DNA of 64,000 nucleotides, taken from assembly GCF_020179835.1 (NCBI RefSeq), contig NZ_JAIUDA010000007.1:186001-250000 (forward strand), read 5' to 3'. The notes below the pieces were generated by a model. That model did not search any database, was not told the DNA's origin, and saw nothing but the letters and a program-made list of their open reading frames with translations. The stretch's first letter is position 1; every line of letters begins with the position of its first letter. Positions 23,861 to 50,491 of this stretch are shown piece after piece. The stretch is from Pantoea sp. alder81 (GTDB lineage Bacteria > Pseudomonadota > Gammaproteobacteria > Enterobacterales > Enterobacteriaceae). The position numbers and the translations under genes were made by a program.

Positions 23861-25312
23861 CTATTTATCCGCCACCAGCGATAATTGGCACCACTCTGCC
23901 AGCTGTTTGATCGCCTCCTCCACTTCGGCATTCCAGCCAAAACCGGCGTTCAGTCGGAAACAGTGATCGTAGCGATGATCGGTGGCGAAGATGTGGCCGG
24001 GCGCGATGCCGATGCCCGCGTTGCGTGCTTTAAGAAAAAGCGCACGCACGTTCAACGCCTGCATCGGCATTTCCACCCACAACACGTAACCACCTTCCGG
24101 ATCTGACACGCGCGTGCCCGCAGGGAAATAACGCAGCACCGCCTGGCGCATATGGTGGATCTGATTCTTCAACTCACGGCGCAGTTTGCGCAGGTGCGCA
24201 TCGTAGCCGCCGCTGCGCAGCAGTTCGGCAATTGCTGCCTGTGACAGCACCGAGGTGCCCATGCTGGTGGTGTATTTCAGTGAGGCGATTTTGCGCATGT
24301 AGTTGCTGCTGTGTACCCAGCCAATGCGGATACCGGGTGCCACCGTTTTTGAGAAGCCGCTGCACAAAATGGCATTCGGGCTAAAGGCGCGCATCGGGAA
24401 TGGGCGGCGATCGCCAAACGCCGTATCACCAAAGATGTCGTCCTCAATGATCACCACATCATTCTCATCGGCCTGGCGCGCAATATAAGCCTTCTGTTCG
24501 TTGGGAATGCTTTTCCCGAGCGGATTATTGATGTTGTTGATGGTGAGATACGCCTGCACCGCTTTGCGCTGAAATAGCGCGGTGAGTTTGCTGACGTTAA
24601 CGTAACCTTCCGGCCCGGCTTCCACTTCAATCACGCGCAGATTGAGATTGTGCAGCATCTGTAACAGTACGAAATAGCACGGCGACTCTACGGCCACAAT
24701 ATCGCCAGGGCGCGTGGTGGCGCGCAGCGCAAGTGAAATGGCCTCGATGCAGCCGTTAGTGATCAGGATGTCATCAGCGTTGATATTGCAGCCATAATCC
24801 ACCGCGCGGCGCGCAATTTCGGCTTTGAGCGGCGCATAGCCGGTGCCTTTCACCGTGTTACCGAGCAGCGCGGGTTTGCTGTACCCCATCTGCCGCATCA
24901 GCAATCCAATTTTCTTGACCGGATAGAGCGAGATGTCGCCATTGGCCAGGTCCAGCCGCACACGACAATCAGATCCCAGCATCGCCAGATGCAGCTCGGT
25001 TTGCTCATCCAGTGGTGCCACGTCGCGCGGCTGCTCGCTGTTAATGGCTGCAGGCAGCACTTTGGGAATCTGACGTGGTGCGACAAAAAAGCCGGACTTG
25101 GGACGCGCCACCGCATAGTGCTCATCCTCCAGCGTGCGTAATGTTTTCAGCGCGGTGGTCATGCTGACACTGTACTGCGTTGCCAGTGTACGCACCGACG
25201 GCAAACGGCTATCGGGCGGCAGCGATCCGCTGTGAATCGCCTGCTTTATCTGCTCTGCAATCTGACGGTAACGACTACTCTGACTCTCCTGTTCACCCGT
25301 TCCATCCGTCAT
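23861..25312 (-). CDS. MocR-type (GntR-aminotransferase fusion) regulator
   Basis: Regulator of 483 residues of the MocR/PdxR type: an N-terminal GntR winged helix (YRQIAEQIKQAIHSGSLPPDSRLPSVRTLA, residues ~15-80) joined to a fold-type I aminotransferase domain. That domain keeps the PLP-site marks GCIEAISLAL, ESPCYF, NNPLG, IIEDDIFGD and the Schiff-base lysine in SGFSKTVAPGIRIGW. Such proteins sense PLP, amino compounds or an amino-acid-PLP adduct. It is divergent from the six-gene biosynthetic-looking unit and separated by 182 bases, so it is the likely pathway regulator. An ATG 13 codons upstream (25351) is an alternative start with no visible ribosome site. Confidence 0.85.
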   Translation of the reverse strand: MTDGTGEQESQSSRYRQIAEQIKQAIHSGSLPPDSRLPSVRTLATQYSVSMTTALKTLRTLEDEHYAVARPKSGFFVAPRQIPKVLPAAINSEQPRDVAPLDEQTELHLAMLGSDCRVRLDLANGDISLYPVKKIGLLMRQMGYSKPALLGNTVKGTGYAPLKAEIARRAVDYGCNINADDILITNGCIEAISLALRATTRPGDIVAVESPCYFVLLQMLHNLNLRVIEVEAGPEGYVNVSKLTALFQRKAVQAYLTINNINNPLGKSIPNEQKAYIARQADENDVVIIEDDIFGDTAFGDRRPFPMRAFSPNAILCSGFSKTVAPGIRIGWVHSSNYMRKIASLKYTTSMGTSVLSQAAIAELLRSGGYDAHLRKLRRELKNQIHHMRQAVLRYFPAGTRVSDPEGGYVLWVEMPMQALNVRALFLKARNAGIGIAPGHIFATDHRYDHCFRLNAGFGWNAEVEEAIKQLAEWCQLSLVADK

Positions 25313-25373
25313 CTGTTCCACCCTATATCGTGCTGATCTGTGCGTATCCATCAGATTACATTCAAAGTACTTT

Positions 25374-25397
25374 AGGCTGCATCTGTTAATTCAGCCT
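25374..25397. promoter_or_regulatory. Divergent promoter region with a weak inverted repeat
   Basis: AGGCTG (25374-25379) and CAGCCT (25392-25397) form a 6-bp inverted repeat midway between the MocR gene and the PP-loop gene. It is short and MocR proteins often use direct repeats, so this is only a candidate. Confidence 0.25.
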
Positions 25398-25494
25398 CAG
25401 ACATTCATTCCGTTGCAACTTCGTGGCCCCTTTTCCTGCCCGTTGCCGCCAGCACGGTAACGGCGATTTTATTAGCCAAAGGATGAAGTGAAAA

Positions 25495-26961
25495 ATGAAT
25501 AATCTGTCCACCATGATGAGAGAAATTGAAGGTTATCTGACGCCCGCGATTATCGATTCTGCTCAACGCTGTTCTCAACGCTTACTTGCCGCCCTGCCCG
25601 ATAGCGAAAACCCCGCTAACAATCGCGTGCTGCTCGCCTATGGCGGCGGGAAAGACAGCAGCTATATGGTGGCGTATGTGCGCTACATTCAGGGGCTGAT
25701 TTGGCAGCAGCAGGGCAGCACCTTTCAGCTACGCATCAGCACCAACCGTCATGCGGCGATGAACGACAGCGTGATGGAGAATATTGATCGCGTGTACCGC
25801 GCGTTGCAGATCCACGATGATGATTTTACCGAATGCCTGGTGACCGATGGCCTGCAAATTCGCCACTTTGCGCGCCATCTGCCGATGCCCGACAGCGTGC
25901 GTCAGCAGAATCGCAACGATGTGCTGATGAATGGCCATCGCTTCCGTGCCGATGCGCGATCCACTTTCTGTAACGCCTGCAATCTCAGCATGGTGAACTC
26001 GTTTGGCCTTGCCGCGCACTACGAAGGCGGCGTGGATGTGATCATCACCGGTGATTCCCCTCAGGAGCAAACCGCTTACCTGGCCTGGGCGCGCCATCTT
26101 TCACGCCTGTTTGATGCGCCGATCGCCGACAAATCACGCGGCTTTAGCGGCTTTCTGCAAACCCTTGATGGCGTGGCAGAACGCTATTTCGCTGATATTT
26201 ATGGTGCCGATCAAGTCACTCAAGCGCACCGCATCACCTGGCAGCTTGAGCGCGACCCGCTGTTCTTCAACATTTATCAGGACACCGCCTATGAAGCCGG
26301 TGCGCACTGGTCGCTACTCACCGAGTTCATGCACTTCCGCTTCGATGAGCTGATGTTCAGCTTCTCTGAATCGGACTGCGGTAACCCGACGTTAATGGCA
26401 CATATTCGCGGTCTGCGAGCGGAGACGCTGATGCAGCGTAGCTACGCCGAAGGCATTCGCGAGTATGTGCGCTTTGCGCTCGGCCTGATGGAGAAGAAAG
26501 ATTTCCCACCGCAGCTGATTGCGGAAATGGCGGCGCGTTATCAGGACGATGCGGCGATTGAACGTGCTCGCCAGCGCGCAGCGCAGTTTGCCGAACAGGC
26601 GTTTGGCCTCAACGAAACCCAGCTGGTGTGCATGATCTACTCGCCGTTTATTGCTGAAGGCCACCAGCTCAATGTCTGGCTGCGGCAGCTCAATCAGGCG
26701 CCCGATGAACAGGCGGTTCGGGCGCTGCTGCGCGGCGATAGCGATGACCTGCTGCTGGCACAGCAGCTGGAGCAACTCTCCGGCCTGACGATTGCGCAGA
26801 TGCGGCAATGCTGGCGCAGCGCTCAGGTCAATTCACTGCTGGACGGCACGCGCGGCGATGCGCTCTCACGCGTGCTGCGTTTCGATCCGCACAAAGCAGT
26901 GATTCAGGTCAACAACGGTGCCTTGCAAGACATCGTCACTGAAGTGATCTCCGGGCGATAA
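25495..26961 (+). CDS. PP-loop ATP pyrophosphatase-type enzyme of unknown substrate
   Basis: Predicted adenylating enzyme of 488 residues. The PP-loop signature is LLAYGGGKDSS at residues 47-56, and a second nucleotide-site motif TGDSPQEQ is at 185-192. A Cys-x-x-Cys pair (FCNAC, Cys159 and Cys162) could bind zinc or an iron-sulfur cluster. PP-loop enzymes adenylate a carboxylate, amide or carbonyl so that ammonia or sulfur can attack; examples are asparagine synthetase, TilS, QueC and N-acetyl sugar amidotransferases. The long C-terminal region (residues ~230-488) is not familiar. First gene of a compact six-gene unit and opposite a MocR regulator. A class II glutaminase two genes on could provide ammonia. 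Exact reaction unknown. Confidence 0.72.
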   Translation: MNNLSTMMREIEGYLTPAIIDSAQRCSQRLLAALPDSENPANNRVLLAYGGGKDSSYMVAYVRYIQGLIWQQQGSTFQLRISTNRHAAMNDSVMENIDRVYRALQIHDDDFTECLVTDGLQIRHFARHLPMPDSVRQQNRNDVLMNGHRFRADARSTFCNACNLSMVNSFGLAAHYEGGVDVIITGDSPQEQTAYLAWARHLSRLFDAPIADKSRGFSGFLQTLDGVAERYFADIYGADQVTQAHRITWQLERDPLFFNIYQDTAYEAGAHWSLLTEFMHFRFDELMFSFSESDCGNPTLMAHIRGLRAETLMQRSYAEGIREYVRFALGLMEKKDFPPQLIAEMAARYQDDAAIERARQRAAQFAEQAFGLNETQLVCMIYSPFIAEGHQLNVWLRQLNQAPDEQAVRALLRGDSDDLLLAQQLEQLSGLTIAQMRQCWRSAQVNSLLDGTRGDALSRVLRFDPHKAVIQVNNGALQDIVTEVISGR

Positions 26962-26978
26962 CCCGGTAAGGCAACGCG

Positions 26979-28256
26979 ATGAGAAAGATTTTCCTGCAGA
27001 TTGGCGCCACGCGTGACGGACAAAACCCGTACTGCGCGGTGGCAAAACGCGAAGGCTATTTTACCGTGCTGGCGGAGATGGGCGACTTTGTCGACTATCA
27101 AAGCTTGAGCATTCAGCTGCCGTTCGATCTGATTGTGCGTCTCGATCGCCCGGAAAATCCGTGGGATGTGTTACAAGCCTGCCTGCGCGCGGGGCTGTTG
27201 GAACATCCTCAGGTGGTGCTGGCGGGCTTTGAAGCCTACAACGCCAGCGCCGGTCGCGTGCGCGAACTGCTGGCGGGGCCGGATGCCGGCCCGAGCTTTA
27301 TTCCGCCGGATAAGTACGCACAGCGCATGGCCCTGCGTAAAGCCTGGCCACGCTTCCCACAGCCGGAGTTTCGCTTCTTCGCCTCACCGCTGAGTATTCG
27401 TGACGCACGAGATGCCTTGCTGTATCCCTGCGTGATCAAACCGGTGGATGGCGGTGGCGGATTGGGCATCTGGCTGGTGGAAGAAGCCAGCCAGCTGGAT
27501 GCGGTCATCGCTAAGCTGGTCGAGACCATGAACTACGGCGGACGCGGCTTCAGCGGCTTTATCGTTGAAAGCTGGTTGCCGGGCGACGAATATTCACTGC
27601 AAGGCGTAGTGGATAACGGTCACGCGGTGGCGCTCACCTGCTGTCAGAAGGTGATCGAACACCACATTGATGAAGAAGGCTGTATCAGCTTTTACGAATC
27701 CGGCCATGTGGCGATGGCCGCGCAACAGCTGCCTGCTGCCTTTGCCAGCTTGATGAGCTTTTGCTGCGAGACTTTTGGCTATCGCCAGGGCGCCTTCCAT
27801 ATCGATTTCATTATGGTGAACGGCGAACCCCACTTCCTTGAAATGGGCTTCCGCTTATCGGGCATGGGCGTGGTGAACCTGGTCGAGGAAGTCACCAGCA
27901 TTAACTGGGCGGACGTAGCGTTTCAGATTGAAGCCGGGCGGGGTTTGCCTGCACTGCGCTTTCCGGATCAACCCCTGGCCATTGGCCGTCTGCGTCTGCG
28001 TCAGCGTCTGCAATATGACGCGGCGGAACGCTGGATTGCCCAACATCAGCGCGGCCAGCTATTGCCACCGCTTAATCTGCCCGCGCTGGCCGTTTCGCCA
28101 CGATCCTCGCTCTACGCCGATCTCACCCGCCATGCCGGTATTCTCGCTACCTTCCGTCTTGCCGCAGACAGCCGTGACGATGTGCTGGCGGTGTTCCAGC
28201 AGATTCTCGACGTTCCGTCTTTAGCCACCCGGAGAGATCTTCTATGTGCAGAATGA
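26979..28256 (+). CDS. ATP-grasp ligase
   Basis: Predicted ATP-dependent carboxylate-amine ligase of 425 residues. The ATP-grasp core is evident: lysine and glycine-rich loop YPCVIKPVDGGGGLGIWLV (residues ~147-166), then ESWLPGDEYSLQGVV, and metal-binding HIDFIMVNGEPHFLEMGFRLSG (~270-290). Overall shape is that of BacD-like amino acid or dipeptide ligases and other biosynthetic ATP-grasp enzymes. It begins 17 bases after the PP-loop gene and its end overlaps the next gene by 13 bases, so translation is coupled. Likely joins two carboxylate/amine building blocks; substrates unknown. Confidence 0.82.
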   Translation: MRKIFLQIGATRDGQNPYCAVAKREGYFTVLAEMGDFVDYQSLSIQLPFDLIVRLDRPENPWDVLQACLRAGLLEHPQVVLAGFEAYNASAGRVRELLAGPDAGPSFIPPDKYAQRMALRKAWPRFPQPEFRFFASPLSIRDARDALLYPCVIKPVDGGGGLGIWLVEEASQLDAVIAKLVETMNYGGRGFSGFIVESWLPGDEYSLQGVVDNGHAVALTCCQKVIEHHIDEEGCISFYESGHVAMAAQQLPAAFASLMSFCCETFGYRQGAFHIDFIMVNGEPHFLEMGFRLSGMGVVNLVEEVTSINWADVAFQIEAGRGLPALRFPDQPLAIGRLRLRQRLQYDAAERWIAQHQRGQLLPPLNLPALAVSPRSSLYADLTRHAGILATFRLAADSRDDVLAVFQQILDVPSLATRRDLLCAE

Positions 28257-28954
28257 TTCTGGCATATGGCCAGTTTGATGCGGCAGCGGTACTGGACGCC
28301 GCACGCGCCATGAGCTGCGGCGAAACCGCGACGCATGACGGCCCGATCAAACAGCACCCGAATGGCTGGGGCTGTTTGTGGCTGGATCAGGGAAAGATTC
28401 GCACCCTGCATGGCACCGGCACCTTTGCTGATGCGCTGCCCGGCATTGATGTTGATGCACTGCGTCATAGCCGTTTTCTGGCGGTACATGTGCGCCACGC
28501 CACGCTGAGCAAAAATCATGGCATTGAGTTTTCTCATCCGCTGTGGCGCACCAGCGGCGCGACGCAGTGGTACATGATGCACAACGGCTTTTTACCTACG
28601 GTTTATGCCCAACTGGGCATGGCGGAATCGCGCTTTGACTCCGCCGAATACCTGGAATACATCGTTGATCAGGCGACGCCTGCCGATTTTACCCGTGACT
28701 ACCTGCGCAGCAAGATGGCGCGGGTGGCACCCGGCGGCAGCGCGGCCAATGCCATTTTCGTCACGCGCGATAAGGCCTGGGCGTGGCAGTGGCATCCCGA
28801 TGACACCCCTTATCCTGACTATTTTACGCTGCACCATTATCAAAACAGCCACACCACTTTTATCTCTTCTGAACCTATTACTGCATTGGGCACGGCGTCT
28901 GACTGGCGTCGCATGAGCAACCATGAACTTTATGAATTTCCATTGGGGGAGTGA
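28244..28954 (+). CDS. Class II glutamine amidotransferase (EgtC/YafJ-like)
   Basis: Ntn-hydrolase of 236 residues. Removal of the initiator methionine would expose Cys2 (MCRMILAYG), the nucleophile. Other motifs are HPNGWGCLWL, HVRHATLSKN, FSHPLW and MMHNGFLP, as in the stand-alone glutaminase-like group with EgtC and YafJ. Family members free ammonia from glutamine or hydrolyse gamma-glutamyl amides. Here it could feed ammonia to the PP-loop enzyme or remove a gamma-glutamyl protecting group. It overlaps the ATP-grasp gene by 13 bases and has a GGAGAG ribosome site inside that gene. Confidence 0.85.
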   Translation: MCRMILAYGQFDAAAVLDAARAMSCGETATHDGPIKQHPNGWGCLWLDQGKIRTLHGTGTFADALPGIDVDALRHSRFLAVHVRHATLSKNHGIEFSHPLWRTSGATQWYMMHNGFLPTVYAQLGMAESRFDSAEYLEYIVDQATPADFTRDYLRSKMARVAPGGSAANAIFVTRDKAWAWQWHPDDTPYPDYFTLHHYQNSHTTFISSEPITALGTASDWRRMSNHELYEFPLGE

Positions 28955-28959
28955 TCAAC

Positions 28960-29760
28960 ATGGCCATTTTCAATCAGATACGCGTTATCCATCCAAAGAT
29001 GTTTGTTGAAAGCACCTGGCTGGATGACATCGTGACAGCGCGCGTACCGTTGCTGGTACTGCGCAACTTCCTCACGCCACAAGTCCGCGAAGCGGTGGTG
29101 GACGATCTGCAACAGTGTCGCGAACAAGTGCGTGTATCGCGTTATCCGAATGGTGCGCTGACCACGCTGGGCCCCTATCTGGCTAAACACACCGCCGCAC
29201 CAGAAAACTACTTCACCGAGCTGCGCGACATTCAGCCTGCGCTGCCGCCGTCACTGCACTGTCTGCGTGACCAGGTTTACAACTGGGTGAAGCACTCATT
29301 ACGTCTGGAGAGTCTGCAAACCGCCAGCGAGCCTGCGCTGGGTGATTACGCCGGTTCGATAGTCCGCTTCCATGCCAATGGCGTGGCCAACCCACTGCAT
29401 AACGACAACATCATGCGCGATGCAGCGGGCAGTGGTTTGGCCGTCACCAACATTCTGCATCAGCTGAGCTGTGTGGTCTGTCTGCAGGAGTGTAATGCGG
29501 GTGGCGAGCTGCGCATTTTCAATAAGAAGTGGCATCCGGTGGATGAACGCTTCAAAACGCCGGGTGAACTCGGCTATCAGACCGGTGTGATTGAGCAAAG
29601 CGAGGCGTGTGAGTTCTCTCCTCGCAGCGGCGATATCTATCTGTTTAATCCTGCTTTTTATCACGAGATTGATCGCGTGGAAGGCGACACGCGCATCACC
29701 ATGGGCTTTTTCTTTGGCCTGACCGACAAAAAAATGAAGCACGCCATAGCCTGGAGTTAA
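28960..29760 (+). CDS. 2-oxoglutarate/Fe(II)-dependent oxygenase
   Basis: Predicted non-haem iron oxygenase of 266 residues. The jelly-roll metal triad is visible as HND (His147, Asp149) in NPLHNDN and His235 in NPAFYHEID, with Arg245 in DTRITMG for the 2-oxoglutarate carboxylate. The pattern resembles prolyl-4-hydroxylase-like 2OG oxygenases; hydroxylation, desaturation or ring formation are all possible. The ATG at 28960 is preferred: it follows GGGGGAG by 7 bases. A GTG at 28951 overlaps the glutaminase stop. Position inside the unit implies it tailors the product. Confidence 0.82.
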   Translation: MAIFNQIRVIHPKMFVESTWLDDIVTARVPLLVLRNFLTPQVREAVVDDLQQCREQVRVSRYPNGALTTLGPYLAKHTAAPENYFTELRDIQPALPPSLHCLRDQVYNWVKHSLRLESLQTASEPALGDYAGSIVRFHANGVANPLHNDNIMRDAAGSGLAVTNILHQLSCVVCLQECNAGGELRIFNKKWHPVDERFKTPGELGYQTGVIEQSEACEFSPRSGDIYLFNPAFYHEIDRVEGDTRITMGFFFGLTDKKMKHAIAWS

Positions 29761-29787
29761 CGCCGGGCCTTCGACGAGGAGATGGAC

Positions 29788-30288
29788 ATGAATACCTACG
29801 AAAAAATCACCGCCCTGCTGGATCAACACCACGCAGACTATCGCGTGGTGGAGCATGAGGCCATCGGTCAGACCGATGTGATCAGTGGCATTCGCGGCAA
29901 CGATCTTAATCAGGCGGCCAAAGCGATGGTGCTGGAAGTGACCATGCCGGACGGTGCCGACGCGCGTTACCTGCTGGCGATTGTGCCGGGCGACTGCAAG
30001 ATCAACTTCAAAAGCGCCGCGCGCGCCATTGGTGGCAAGAAGTCGAGCTTTGCCGCGCCAGAGAAAGCACAGGAGCTGACGCAGTGTGTGATGGGCGCGG
30101 TGCCGCCCTTTAGTTTTGATGACCGACTGGCGCTGCGCGTCGATACGCGCCTGCGTGATGTCGGCACATTATGGTTTAACGCCGGTGCGCTGGAGCGTTC
30201 CGTGGCGCTGAATGTGGATGATTTCTTTGGTGTTGTCGGCGATGACTGTTGTGCAGATATTGCCACTCCGATGACGGCGACTGCCTGA
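29788..30288 (+). CDS. YbaK/ProX-type aminoacyl-tRNA deacylase domain protein
   Basis: Single-domain editing-type protein of 166 residues. It has the YbaK-fold marks: QAAKAMVLEV, the lysine-containing INFKSAARAIGGKKSSFA region, and GAVPPFSFDDRL. YbaK, ProXp-ala and relatives hydrolyse amino acids wrongly attached to tRNA, for example Cys or Ala on tRNA-Pro. Within a pathway that seems to make an amino-acid-like compound, it may protect the producer by clearing tRNAs charged with the product. It starts at the ATG at 29788, 6 bases after AGGAG (an ATG at 29782 is too close). Confidence 0.82.
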   Translation: MNTYEKITALLDQHHADYRVVEHEAIGQTDVISGIRGNDLNQAAKAMVLEVTMPDGADARYLLAIVPGDCKINFKSAARAIGGKKSSFAAPEKAQELTQCVMGAVPPFSFDDRLALRVDTRLRDVGTLWFNAGALERSVALNVDDFFGVVGDDCCADIATPMTATA

Positions 30289-30311
30289 AACGGCTGCAGT
30301 AAGGAACGAGT

Positions 30312-31217
30312 ATGTCAGTAAAAGATATGATGTTAGCCCTGTGCGTGGTGGTGGCGTGGGGCGTGAATTTCGTGGTGATCAAACTGGGCCTGCACGATAT
30401 GCCGCCGTTTCTGCTGGCGGGATTGCGTTTTGCGTTAGTGGCGTTCCCGGCGATCTTCTTTGTGAAGCGGCCGCAGATCCCCCTGCGCTGGCTGATCGTG
30501 TACGGCATGACCATCAGCTTTGGCCAGTTCGCCTTTCTGTTTCTGGCGATTAAACTCGGCATGCCTGCGGGGCTGGCCTCACTGGTGTTGCAGGCACAGG
30601 CATTCTTTACGCTGCTGTTGGGTGCACTGTTACTGGCGGAGAAATTGCGCTGGAACCACATCGCCGGGATTTTAGTGGCGACACTGGGCATGTTTATGCT
30701 GGCAACCGCCGGCATGGAGGGGCAAACCACGGCAGGGATTACGCTGACCACCATGATGCTGACGCTGGCGGCCGCGCTGTCCTGGGGACTGGGCAATATC
30801 ACCAACAAAATCATTTTGCGTAATCGTAAGGTGCCGGTGATGTCGCTGGTGGTGTGGAGTGCGCTGGTGCCGGTGGTGCCCTTTTTTGCCTGCTCGTGGT
30901 GGTTTGATGGCGAAGCGGCAATCGTCACCAGCCTGCTGAATATCTCGTTGCAGACCATACTTGCACTGATTTATCTCGCGTTTGTTGCCACCATTGTCGG
31001 CTACGCCATTTGGGGCAATCTTCTCGGTCGTTATGAGACCTGGCGTGTGGCGCCTCTTTCACTGCTGGTGCCGGTGGTGGGTATTCTCAGTGCCGCGCTG
31101 GTGTTGGGAGAAACCTTGTCATCACAGGAGATCCTCGGTGCGTCAGTGATTATTCTTGGCCTGCTGGTGAACGTGTTTGGTGGGATGGTGAGCCAGCGAT
31201 TATGGGTGCGCACTTGA
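30312..31217 (+). CDS. eamA: EamA-type exporter (cysteine/O-acetylserine family)
   Basis: Inner-membrane exporter of 301 residues with ten predicted helices in two EamA repeats. It is very close to E. coli EamA (YdeD): WGVNFVVIKLGLHDMPPFLLAGLRF, GMPAGLASLVLQAQAFFT and GRYETWRVAPLSLLVPVVG are shared. EamA exports cysteine and O-acetylserine. As last gene of the MocR-linked unit, 23 bases after the deacylase gene and followed by a strong terminator, it may here export the pathway product, possibly a cysteine- or serine-like compound. It could also be the ancestral eamA drawn into the unit. Confidence 0.9.
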   Translation: MSVKDMMLALCVVVAWGVNFVVIKLGLHDMPPFLLAGLRFALVAFPAIFFVKRPQIPLRWLIVYGMTISFGQFAFLFLAIKLGMPAGLASLVLQAQAFFTLLLGALLLAEKLRWNHIAGILVATLGMFMLATAGMEGQTTAGITLTTMMLTLAAALSWGLGNITNKIILRNRKVPVMSLVVWSALVPVVPFFACSWWFDGEAAIVTSLLNISLQTILALIYLAFVATIVGYAIWGNLLGRYETWRVAPLSLLVPVVGILSAALVLGETLSSQEILGASVIILGLLVNVFGGMVSQRLWVRT

Positions 31218-31229
31218 TCTGCAGAAACA

Positions 31230-31255
31230 AAAACGCCGCATTTCTGCGGCGTTTT
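31230..31255. terminator. Bidirectional terminator between eamA and ibpA
   Basis: 11-bp stem AAAACGCCGCA / TGCGGCGTTTT with a 4-base loop, flanked by an A-tract and a T-tract. It stops both the six-gene unit and ibpA. Confidence 0.93.
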
Positions 31256-31273
31256 CTTCTCTACACAACATCC

Positions 31274-31690
31274 TTAATTCAGGATTTCAATCCGGCGCGG
31301 TTTCGCCTCTTCTGGAACGATACGTTCCAGATCGATGCTCAGCAGGCCCAGTTCGAGACGCGCATCGCGCACCACGATATGATCCGCCAGCTGGAATTTG
31401 CGCTCAAAATTACGCTCGGCGATACCCTGATACAGGTATTTGCGCTCCGGTTGCTCTTCCGGATGCGCGCCGCGAATAACCAGCACGTTGTCGTGTGAGG
31501 TGATATCTAACTCGCTCTGGGCAAAGCCCGCCACGGCAATGGTGATGCGATAGTGGTTTTCATCCACCAGCTCGACATTGTAAGGAGGATAGCCACCATT
31601 GGCCTGGTTCTGATTGGACTCAAGCAAGCTAAACAGACGGTCGAAACCAATAGCAGAACGATAAAGCGGAGTGAGATCAAAGTTACGCAT
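31274..31690 (-). CDS. ibpA: IbpA, small heat-shock protein
   Basis: Aggregase-type chaperone that coats misfolded proteins for release by DnaK and ClpB. 138 residues from the ATG at 31690 ([20 protein letters not shown]), nearly the same as E. coli IbpA. The alpha-crystallin domain covers residues ~35-125 ([35 protein letters not shown]), and the C-terminal PRRIEILN carries the I-x-I/L anchoring motif. The frame continues upstream to 32047 but that part is promoter and leader DNA. No ibpB follows; downstream is a terminator and eamA. Confidence 0.97.
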
Positions 31691-31697
31691 AAAAAGA

Positions 31698-31714
31698 CTC
31701 CTGAAAATCAGCAA
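31698..31714 (-). promoter_or_regulatory. ROSE-like RNA thermometer hairpin of ibpA
   Basis: In the ibpA leader, TTGCT (minus strand, 31710-31714) can pair imperfectly with the AGGAG ribosome site (31698-31702), the short ROSE arrangement known from ibpA mRNAs. Heat would open it. The full leader runs roughly 31691-31790; a longer upstream stem is likely but not resolved by eye. Confidence 0.72.
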
Positions 31715-31795
31715 GTTTTGGCAACCTTCCACCATGGACAGGTTGTGTGGCCCGCTGCTGTCCCTGTCGGCAACAGCAACGCTACCCAGAGGTAA

Positions 31796-49090: not shown

Positions 49091-50491
49091 TCAGGAAGAT
49101 AATGTTCGAATGAGGTTAGAGAAATCTTCTTTGATGTCGTGGCTCTCTTCACGCAACTGCTCAATCTTACGGCAGGCATGGAGCACGGTGGTATGGTCAC
49201 GGCCACCAAACGCATCGCCAATTTCCGGCAGGCTATGGTTGGTCAGCTCTTTCGCCATCGCCATCGCCATCTGACGCGGACGAGCCACCGAACGCGAACG
49301 GCGCTTCGACAGCAAATCCGCTACTTTGATTTTGTAGTACTCGGCCACCGTTTTCTGGATGTTATCGATGGTGACCAGCTTTTCCTGCAACGCCAGCAGA
49401 TCGCGCAGCGCTTCGCGCACGAAATCGATGGTAATGGCGCGACCGGTGAAGTTGGCATTCGCGATAACGCGATTCAGCGCCCCTTCCAGCTCACGCACAT
49501 TAGAGCGCAGGCGTTTAGCAATAAAGAAGGCGACTTCACCCGGCAGACGAATATCATTCTCGTCGGCTTTCTTCATCAGGATCGCCACGCGTGTTTCCAG
49601 CTCAGGCGGCTCGATCGCGACAGTTAATCCCCAGCCAAAACGCGATTTCAGGCGATCTTCTACGCCGTTGATCTCTTTTGGATAACGATCCGAGGTCAAA
49701 ATGATCTGCTGATTACCTTCCAACAATGCATTGAAGGTATGGAAAAACTCTTCCTGCGAGCGCTCTTTATTAGCAAAGAACTGAATGTCATCGATCAACA
49801 GTGCATCGACGGAACGGTAATAACGCTTAAATTCTTCAATGGCGTTGTTTTGCAGCGCTTTTACCATGTCCTGCACAAAACGTTCGGAGTGCATGTAAAC
49901 CACTTTGGCATTTGGCTTACGCGCAATAATGCCATTCCCCACCGCATGCAACAGGTGAGTTTTACCTAAACCGGTGCCGCCATAAAGGAAGAGAGGGTTA
50001 TAGGCGCCGCCAGGATTATCCGCCACCTGACGTGCCGCCGCGCGCGCCAGTTGGTTAGATTTACCTTCAACGAAGTTATCGAAGTTATGGCGGTTATTCA
50101 CATTTGAACGATAGGTCACGTCTGCAGGTGCTGGCACCGAATCCCAGCTTGGACGCAAAATTTGCGCCGGAGCAGGACGATTTTCAACGGGAGCACGTGT
50201 GCTGTAAGCCGCCATTGCAGGCTGGCTGGTCGTTACTTGCGCAGCCGGGCGCGTGCCCACTTCGAAACGCAGCAAAGGCACGTTCGGGCCGCAGAATTCA
50301 TTCAGCAGCCCATTAATACTATTGAGGTATTTATCCCGAACCCAGTCGAGTACAAACCGATTTGGTGCATACAAGGTCAGCGTATTGTCGTTTAATTCAG
50401 CCTGCAGCGGACGAATCCACATGCTGAATTCGGTGGCAGGAAGCTCATCCTGCAAACGGGCAAGACACTGTTGCCAAAGCGTAAGTGACAC
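49091..50491 (-). CDS. dnaA: DnaA, replication initiator
   Basis: AAA+ initiator of 466 residues (E. coli 467). Domain [29 protein letters not shown]; variable linker ~85-130; Walker [17 protein letters not shown], Walker [10 protein letters not shown], arginine finger in SRFGWGLT; C-terminal domain IV with [36 protein letters not shown] binding DnaA boxes. The start is GTG at 50491, as in E. coli; the frame runs on to 50620 but that part is leader. Confidence 0.98.

Follow-up and report, generated by a model that had tools for sequence, protein, structure and literature searches.

A conserved six-gene operon of Pantoea that probably makes and exports a small non-protein amino acid

The locus and its genes

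The chromosome of Pantoea sp. alder81 carries, on contig NZ_JAIUDA010000007.1, a compact gene unit that is described here within a window of 64,000 nucleotides (contig positions 186,001–250,000, forward strand; the coordinates below are those of the window). An open reading frame scan places six co-directed, packed genes at 25495–31217 (5,723 bases, + strand), with a gene for a MocR-type regulator diverging from them. The unit is an ancient, undescribed operon carried by most Pantoea and found also in soil bacteria of other phyla, and it probably serves to make, export and resist an unusual, toxic amino acid. Its features are as follows.

23861–25351, – strand: MocR-type regulator (Pfam GntR, 58.8 bits, and Aminotran_1_2, 102.6 bits)
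25352–25494, no strand: divergent promoter region with a block conserved in many Pantoea and ATCTGT-like repeats; candidate operator
25495–26961, + strand: PP-loop enzyme of an unnamed family, 488 amino acids (GGGKDS motif and predicted fold); proposed to activate an amide
26979–28256, + strand: ATP-grasp ligase similar to L-amino acid ligases (Pfam ATP-grasp_3/4; best sequence match in the PDB, 3vot)
28244–28954, + strand: class II (N-terminal nucleophile, Ntn) glutaminase-like protein with Cys2 (GATase_4, 28 bits, cut-off 23)
28960–29760 (alternative GTG start 28951), + strand: Fe(II)/2-oxoglutarate (2OG) oxygenase, relative of WelO5 and HilA (WelO5 Pfam 74.1 bits; HilA 33 bits)
29788–30288 (alternative ATG start 29782), + strand: YbaK/INS-type aminoacyl-tRNA deacylase, proposed to act in self-protection (tRNA_edit, 73.9 bits)
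30312–31217, + strand: EamA-type exporter; closest family, the O-acetylserine/cysteine exporters (EamA, 106 bits; PRK11453, 405.1 bits)
31230–31255, + strand: terminator hairpin followed by a T-rich run (–18.4 kcal/mol, z –6.1, none of 200 shuffles equally stable)

The intergenic gaps are, in gene order, 17, –13, 5, 27 or 21, and 23 bases; the gap of 5 between glutaminase and oxygenase applies to the ATG start of the latter, and the GTG start gives a 4-base overlap. An earlier reading of this DNA, made from its letters and open reading frames alone (the sequence-only reading), had described six packed genes on one strand with these gaps, a divergent MocR gene and a closing hairpin, and the scan and the folding energy agree with it, although the hairpin at 31230–31255 is missing from the output of a consensus terminator scan. 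The families it had named for the MocR, ATP-grasp, glutaminase, 2OG oxygenase, YbaK and EamA proteins agree likewise with matches to Pfam and NCBIfam.

The regulator consists of a GntR DNA-binding domain fused to a class I/II aminotransferase-like domain (Pfam), the architecture that defines the MocR/GabR group, and its gene stays beside the unit in the loci from Erwiniaceae and Hafnia. In four actinobacterial relatives (L055, L057, L058 and L063) a LysR gene adjoins the unit instead and no MocR gene was detected, which suggests that control by MocR would not be universal. The palindrome AAAGTACTTT (25364–25373), between the MocR gene and the unit, is a candidate operator; the block is kept in many Pantoea and not in Hafnia, as seen in an alignment of 18 upstream regions, several of which are too short to span it.

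The PP-loop enzyme

The product of the first gene has no match in Pfam or NCBIfam, and no sequence relative in the PDB was found for it by phmmer or as a profile. It is assigned to the PP-loop ATP pyrophosphatase type by its GGGKDS P-loop motif, present in all 46 proteins of the family alignment and tree, and by an AlphaFold2 model (pLDDT 89.8) with a predicted PP-loop fold. The sequence-only reading had given it the same identity, which the motif and the model uphold and the family databases do not. After the N-acetyl sugar amidotransferases (WbuX/WbpG/PseA), taken up below, the second structural match is the [4Fe-4S] thiolase NcsA (Z 10.9, 194 residues, model 15–297 to chain 26–235); TilS, FAD synthase, GMP synthetase, NAD synthetase, TtuA and LarE match more weakly, and QueC is absent among the 50 structural matches listed.

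Three cysteines, C159 and C162 (Cys159-x2-Cys162, a CxxC) and C295, are invariant in the 46 proteins and are spaced as in iron-sulphur tRNA thiolases. From the CxxC to the glycine of TGDS there are 23 residues in 45 of the 46; in TtcA there are 22 from the CxxC to the glycine of GHxxDD (13/13 measured, these being the rows out of 17 that have both motifs as typed). C295 lies near the end of the structural alignments with NcsA (297 to 235), 5mkq (297 to 221) and 3vrh (296 to 221), the last of which we take to be a TtuA, and these ends presumably coincide with the third cluster ligand there. TtcA, TtuA and NcsA share with the enzyme a PP-loop, a CxxC 22–23 residues before a TG/GH motif and a third conserved cysteine; the enzyme differs from them in its length of 488 residues, its extra C-terminal part and its place beside biosynthetic genes, and its iron-sulphur cluster is putative. 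The cluster of TtuA is described as bound by three conserved cysteines (PMC6225789). One WbuX-like protein (at L118, match 1501–2463) has a CYLC placed like the CxxC of TtcA, and by its sequence it is perhaps an intermediate between amidotransferases and thiolases.

Partner enzymes, export and self-protection

The AlphaFold2 model of the ATP-grasp protein (pLDDT 89.9) resembles 3vot (Z 28.9 over 358 residues) and RizA (Z 28.2), with PurT near behind at 27.6; the modelled fold is that of an L-amino acid ligase over the whole length, and dipeptide formation is a possible activity. The glutaminase begins with MCR (Cys2) and contains MHNG in all 16 relatives aligned, as is typical of Ntn amidohydrolases. 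The nearest named families of the oxygenase are the WelO5 halogenases and the isoleucine dioxygenase HilA. Halogenases of this kind lack the carboxylate of the HxD motif; here HxD...H is kept as in hydroxylases, within NPLHND in all 18 relatives aligned, so hydroxylation is likelier than halogenation, and the candidate role of a WelO5-type halogenase was rejected because LHND is kept throughout. These motif alignments (16 glutaminase, 18 oxygenase and 13 YbaK rows) left out 20 loci, mostly near-identical Pantoea and some eroded, and also lack rows missed in gene picking, such as the glutaminases of L057, L063 and L068.

The YbaK-type protein keeps the catalytic lysine (QAAK) and GxxxP in all 13 relatives aligned, the lysine and the GxxxP loop being named as YbaK motifs in the literature (PMC9425024). 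It falls far under the NCBIfam cut-offs for housekeeping members (54.1 against 153.25 bits; 37.5 against 243), and BLAST gave no similarity between it and the three other editing domains of the genome. Protection from an antimetabolite by a standalone deacylase is known in the case of canavanine (PMC10018355). The EamA gene does not reach the equivalog cut-off of PRK11453 (405.1 bits against 472), and the next-best member of that family in the same genome scores 95 bits.

Conservation within Pantoea and the family

Among 36 Pantoea genomes, the PP-loop gene and the glutaminase gene were each found in 30 and the oxygenase gene in 31, the 31st oxygenase match (G011) covering half of the protein only at 29% identity. 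All three genes are in the same 30 genomes and, apart from that weak match, are missing together from G002, G010, G011, G012, G019 and G029. One of the 30, a reduced genome of 2.4 Mb (G014), holds remnants of the unit only, and in another (G003) the PP-loop gene is broken into three pieces; eroded copies also occur in two symbiont loci, L048 (recorded as coming from Euschistus servus) and L053 (Candidatus Pantoea persica). Outside the genus the unit is rare: a sample of 198 genomes from the family yielded three carriers, one of them the genome of the window itself, and 24 genomes that each represent a different other family of the order yielded none. The ratio of nonsynonymous to synonymous substitution rates (dN/dS), computed for the six unit genes, MocR not among them, against three other species, is 0.06–0.14 for five genes and 0.13–0.15 for the YbaK gene; a frameshifted YbaK copy in P. 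wallisii gives 0.21. The synteny, the joint presence and absence, and the low dN/dS of the six genes together argue that the unit is more than a chance array.

Two RNA features of the window, the AsdA antisense RNA of dnaA (49904–49984, + strand) and a selenocysteine tRNA gene (1711–1801, + strand), indicate that the site is chromosomal. The unit lies about 18 kb from dnaA and is thus probably near the replication origin.

Relatives in other bacteria

A search of one genome per species (84,980 species) returned 114 relatives of the PP-loop protein, of which 80 were kept, and these span five phyla. The seven window proteins were searched against 81 loci by tblastn (one query per family, E 1e-5), and partner genes were searched in 47 distant loci (L021 and L054–L101, minus the Pantoea loci L059 and L095) by tblastn with one representative each (E 1e-10, 40% coverage); "not detected" denotes partner genes below these thresholds, and some loci end at contig ends (for example L060, L082, L086, L094 and L096). 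Besides Erwiniaceae, all six genes are present in Hafnia (L050), Streptomyces (L054, L063), Streptantibioticus (L057), Micromonospora (L058) and Myxococcus (L068). L055 has five of the six, EamA being undetected; an Azospirillum locus (L056) has four, with YbaK and a close EamA undetected; and in Pseudomonas fragi (L087) a PP-loop gene with a frameshift is accompanied by glutaminase, oxygenase and EamA, the core ATP-grasp not being found. The co-occurrence of the families, proposed as a check in the sequence-only reading, is therefore borne out widely, in 30 of the 36 Pantoea genomes and across phyla; the full set co-occurs over three phyla and the PP-loop enzyme occurs in five, which strengthens the core of the biosynthetic reading.

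The distant loci differ in the amide- or peptide-forming enzyme that accompanies the PP-loop gene. An AsnA-like gene is present in 17 of the 47, each time with both methylaspartate (glutamate) mutase subunits; AsnB lies beside an adenylation-carrier protein in 13; and the core ATP-grasp subfamily, that of the Pantoea unit, is present in 12. Exactly one of the three was found in 42 loci and two together in none, and five loci (L070, L072, L081, L083 and L087) have none of them. The AsnB match of L078 is weak (32%), and its PP-loop protein groups with the core-ATP-grasp proteins in the tree. The tree of the 46 proteins shows grouping by partner gene, AsnA appearing in at least two places. The presence of a single such enzyme in 42 of the 47 loci places the PP-loop family beside an ATP-dependent amide- or peptide-forming step, and we infer that it probably acts on the amide; from this genomic setting, activation of an amide is the more probable role.

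Seven distant loci combine the core ATP-grasp, glutaminase and oxygenase; five of these have a close EamA gene and no detected DdaF-like ligase, and the other two (L055 and L056) have, besides the core ATP-grasp, a DdaF-like ligase of the PRK07206 family (334 and 386 bits), accompanied in L055 by a major facilitator superfamily (MFS) gene. Ten AsnA loci (L080, L088, L089, L091–L093 and L098–L101) have a DdaF-like ligase and no detected EamA, two Methylobacter loci (L021 and L096) have EamA and no detected DdaF-like ligase, and two AsnB-type loci (L076 and L079) have both. The Methylobacter loci also show the minimal set, in which the PP-loop gene is joined by genes for AsnA, the mutase, EamA and a MocR-like protein (in L021 Pfam recognised just the aminotransferase part of the last), and so small a set points to an amino acid as the product.

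Proposed function and its alternatives

Each chemical step below, like the product, its toxicity and its regulation, is a proposal built on the observed gene content, catalytic motifs, predicted folds, conservation and recurring partner genes. The unit probably serves to produce and export a small non-protein amino acid and to shield the cell from it. The PP-loop enzyme would adenylate the side-chain amide of an amino-acid substrate and swap its oxygen for sulphur, forming a thioamide; the ATP-grasp enzyme would supply an amide or peptide bond, possibly using ammonia that the class II glutaminase provides; the oxygenase would hydroxylate the carbon skeleton; and EamA would export the product. 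The YbaK-type deacylase would strip the product from mischarged tRNA, and in this way the producer would keep it out of its own protein. MocR may tune expression in response to a signal, which could be the product, an amine or pyridoxal 5'-phosphate (PLP). Taken as a whole, with the thioamide amino acid included, this explanation is tentative. If the general reading is granted, the thioamide ranks first among the products of the PP-loop enzyme, itself a cautious choice, the nitrile second and the amidine third. A free amino acid would be favoured over a short peptide, a leaning due to L055 and L056, which carry the core ATP-grasp and a second, dapdiamide-synthase-like ligase. The sequence-only reading had proposed a modified amino acid or short peptide that is made and secreted; a conserved unit for the biosynthesis and export of an amino-acid-like compound fits the comparative evidence well. 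Biosynthetic clusters of at least four kinds, spread over five phyla, contain the PP-loop family, mostly next to an enzyme that forms an amide or peptide bond. That its Pantoea member founds a new, large amide-activating family, forming thioamides, nitriles or amidines on free amino acids, and yields in Pantoea a secreted, near-core antimetabolite with protection by a dedicated tRNA-editing enzyme, is a proposal on which belief and doubt nearly balance, doubt having the slight edge.

Several observations weigh against this explanation. The best structural match of the PP-loop model is the N-acetyl sugar amidotransferase 8wex (Z 12.3, 286 residues, model 17–482) and not a thiolase. A comparison by hhalign of the PP-loop profile (shallow, Neff, the effective number of sequences, 2.9) with the TtcA alignment gave no match; nor did one with 14 WbuX members, so that membership of the enzyme in either family is at most putative. 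These comparisons used 17 of 20 TtcA loci (L132, partial, and L138 and L143, with a stop, were excluded) and 14 of 24 WbuX loci (weak matches and L103, with stops, were excluded). No sulphur-carrier or cysteine-desulphurase family is among the annotated neighbour families, the neighbours being annotated in part. Many AsnA loci and some AsnB loci also have ATP-grasps of further subfamilies, and the one-of-three pattern thus concerns subfamilies. The glutaminase and the oxygenase occur as a pair in all eight distant loci that have either, including L087, where the core ATP-grasp was not found; the glutaminase therefore need not serve the ATP-grasp, and its partner may be the oxygenase step. On this account the idea of ATP-grasp and glutaminase as one glutamine-dependent amide synthetase is weakened. 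Finally, L056, without a close EamA, holds a distant EamA-family transporter beside its extra ligase, so that export by EamA is not clear-cut.

Two alternatives keep the general reading and change the chemistry of the PP-loop enzyme. It could dehydrate the side-chain amide to a nitrile, as nitrile-forming PP-loop enzymes exist (QueC), giving a cyano amino acid, in the AsnA types a compound like beta-cyanoalanine, with a neighbouring nitrilase as a second self-protection gene that hydrolyses the nitrile. The amide formers AsnA and AsnB adjoin the PP-loop enzyme, and a nitrilase, present in seven of the 12 core-ATP-grasp loci and undetected in the 35 other distant loci, also speaks for a nitrile; in L082 it stands beside YbaK. 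YbaK is likewise present in seven of the 12; at least one of the two genes is in 11 and neither was detected in the 35 others, a pattern that counts for the preferred explanation. The nitrilases come from Streptomycetaceae, Micromonosporaceae and Chloroflexota, belong to the CN_hydrolase family and have PEAFLGGYP-, HRKLMPT- and CWENYMPL-like motifs. They are nearest to Nit6803 but score 190–193 bits against a family cut-off of 503; no nitrilase was found in the L068 locus or among the window's six genes; a close one (61–62%) lies elsewhere in only four of the 36 Pantoea genomes, with weaker matches in eight more; and nitrile chemistry does not require the three invariant thiolase-like cysteines. 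Granted the general reading, a nitrile seems unlikely, and an amidine distinctly more so. In the latter case the enzyme would form an amidine (or amide) with ammonia supplied by the class II glutaminase, which lies in the same operon and is kept in P. fragi in the apparent absence of the core ATP-grasp. N-acetyl sugar amidotransferases produce acetamidino groups, and 8wex covers most of the PP-loop model. Yet the N-terminal CxxC...CxxC found in all 14 WbuX relatives read is missing from the PP-loop family, whose one common N-terminal cysteine is C26 (33/46), no glycan gene is among the six, the amidotransferase family TIGR03573 gave no NCBIfam match to the protein at E 0.1, and the glutaminase was undetected in 39 of the 47 distant loci. 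A related idea, a cyclic amidine of glutamine acting as a proline analogue of the noformycin/anthelvencin type, was considered because INS-type deacylases act on tRNA-Pro; nothing usable on it was found among openly licensed papers.

The remaining alternatives depart further from an exported, toxic amino acid. The ATP-grasp could make the final product, a dipeptide prodrug like the dapdiamides, since it is nearest to dipeptide ligases by fold and sequence and DdaF-like ligases are found in other loci of the PP-loop family. A clean swap of EamA for a DdaF-like ligase with an MFS gene is weakened, as it holds for L055 and not for L056, L076 or L079, and the dipeptide gains some weight by this; it nevertheless appears improbable, as L055 and L056 hold both ligases and the core ATP-grasp there looks like an earlier step. 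It is a little less improbable that the unit makes no toxin at all and serves instead to detoxify or mend a damaged amino acid or peptide, or to produce a compatible solute, YbaK and EamA then acting in quality control. That 30 of 36 genomes have the unit, at a site some 18 kb away from dnaA, contrasts with the patchy distribution of the known Pantoea antibiotics as published (PMC11350110), a point in favour. The relatives of the PP-loop gene, however, lie beside a nonribosomal peptide synthetase adenylation-carrier protein, pairs of lysine N-oxygenase and a methionyl-tRNA synthetase (MetRS)-like protein, and glutamate mutase, which are typical of specialised metabolites, and the copies of the unit in reduced and symbiont genomes have decayed. 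A non-protein amino acid that is exported and guarded against is retained as the preferred explanation.

Relation to known systems

No described pathway of this kind was found in the openly licensed literature, whether for the combination or for the separate ideas, which accords with the combination having gone unrecognised in the sequence-only reading. A close parallel in the same bacterial family is the 6-thioguanine cluster ycfABCD of Erwinia amylovora, in which a PP-loop ATPase is likewise central to a small-molecule antimetabolite (PMC6225789; PMC7994395); YcfA is described as needed for 6-thioguanine formation (PMC6225789), and the papers differ on which pair is needed with regard to its partners, the PLP-dependent YcfC and the NUDIX protein YcfB (PMC6225789; PMC7994395). 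The Pantoea unit has an ATP-grasp, a class II glutaminase, an Fe/2OG oxygenase and YbaK instead, the likeness to YcfA being one of description; identity with the 6-thioguanine cluster was rejected, as no NUDIX or PLP-dependent partner of the YcfB/YcfC kind is among the six genes.

With the dapdiamide cluster of Pantoea agglomerans the unit shares the logic of an amino-acid ligase, and DdaF-like ligases adjoin some PP-loop relatives; by the ligase alone, on which this comparison is based, the window's ATP-grasp reaches 34 bits, where the cut-off for DdaF is 840. The twelve Pantoea antibiotic clusters of a published survey were compared with the unit by gene number, GC content and distribution as given there (PMC11350110). 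PNP-2 is similar in size and gene number, with six genes and 5,784 bases, and is reported to have 41.9% GC, a predicted ferredoxin reductase and a patchy distribution (PMC11350110). The unit, with 57.3% GC, no ferredoxin reductase gene and a presence in 30 of 36 genomes, is set apart from it by description, and identity with PNP-2 was rejected. antiSMASH is reported to have missed PNP-1, PNP-2 and one PNP-3 cluster (PMC7744662).

If the proposed function is correct, the unit would bring to light a new family of enzymes that carry out a rarely seen functional-group change on free amino acids, and would show clearly how tRNA editing can make a producer immune to its own product. It would also stand for small antimetabolite clusters that are shared across phyla and that the usual mining tools may overlook. 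It would further mean that Pantoea, common on plants and in clinics, secretes a near-universal compound of which the openly licensed literature searched here holds no description.

Other clusters and features

The PP-loop family also occurs in clusters of other composition. In L067, L070, L072, L075 and L084 the gene is found with a MetRS-like protein, mostly together with a lysine N-oxygenase, a family-5 solute-binding protein and a cytochrome P450; both the lysine N-oxygenase and the MetRS-like protein are present in the AsnA loci L067 and L084. This pairing is known from hydrazine-forming pathways, and the clusters are possibly uncharacterised N-N bond (hydrazine) clusters. In a Pseudomonas cluster (L088) and its relatives (L080, L089, L091–L094 and L101), AsnA, glutamate mutase, ATP-grasps and an MFS gene surround the PP-loop gene, mostly with a PanB-like protein and a MocR-like gene as well. 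The AsnB-type clusters L097 (12627–14285), L061, L069, L071 and L076 encode a 552-residue protein with a partial match to the editing domain of leucyl-tRNA synthetase, possibly another self-protection factor. In the window itself, a ROSE_2 RNA thermometer (31684–31755, – strand; 65.2 bits, gathering score 65) lies upstream of the gene for a small heat-shock protein (HSP20), which runs towards the unit.

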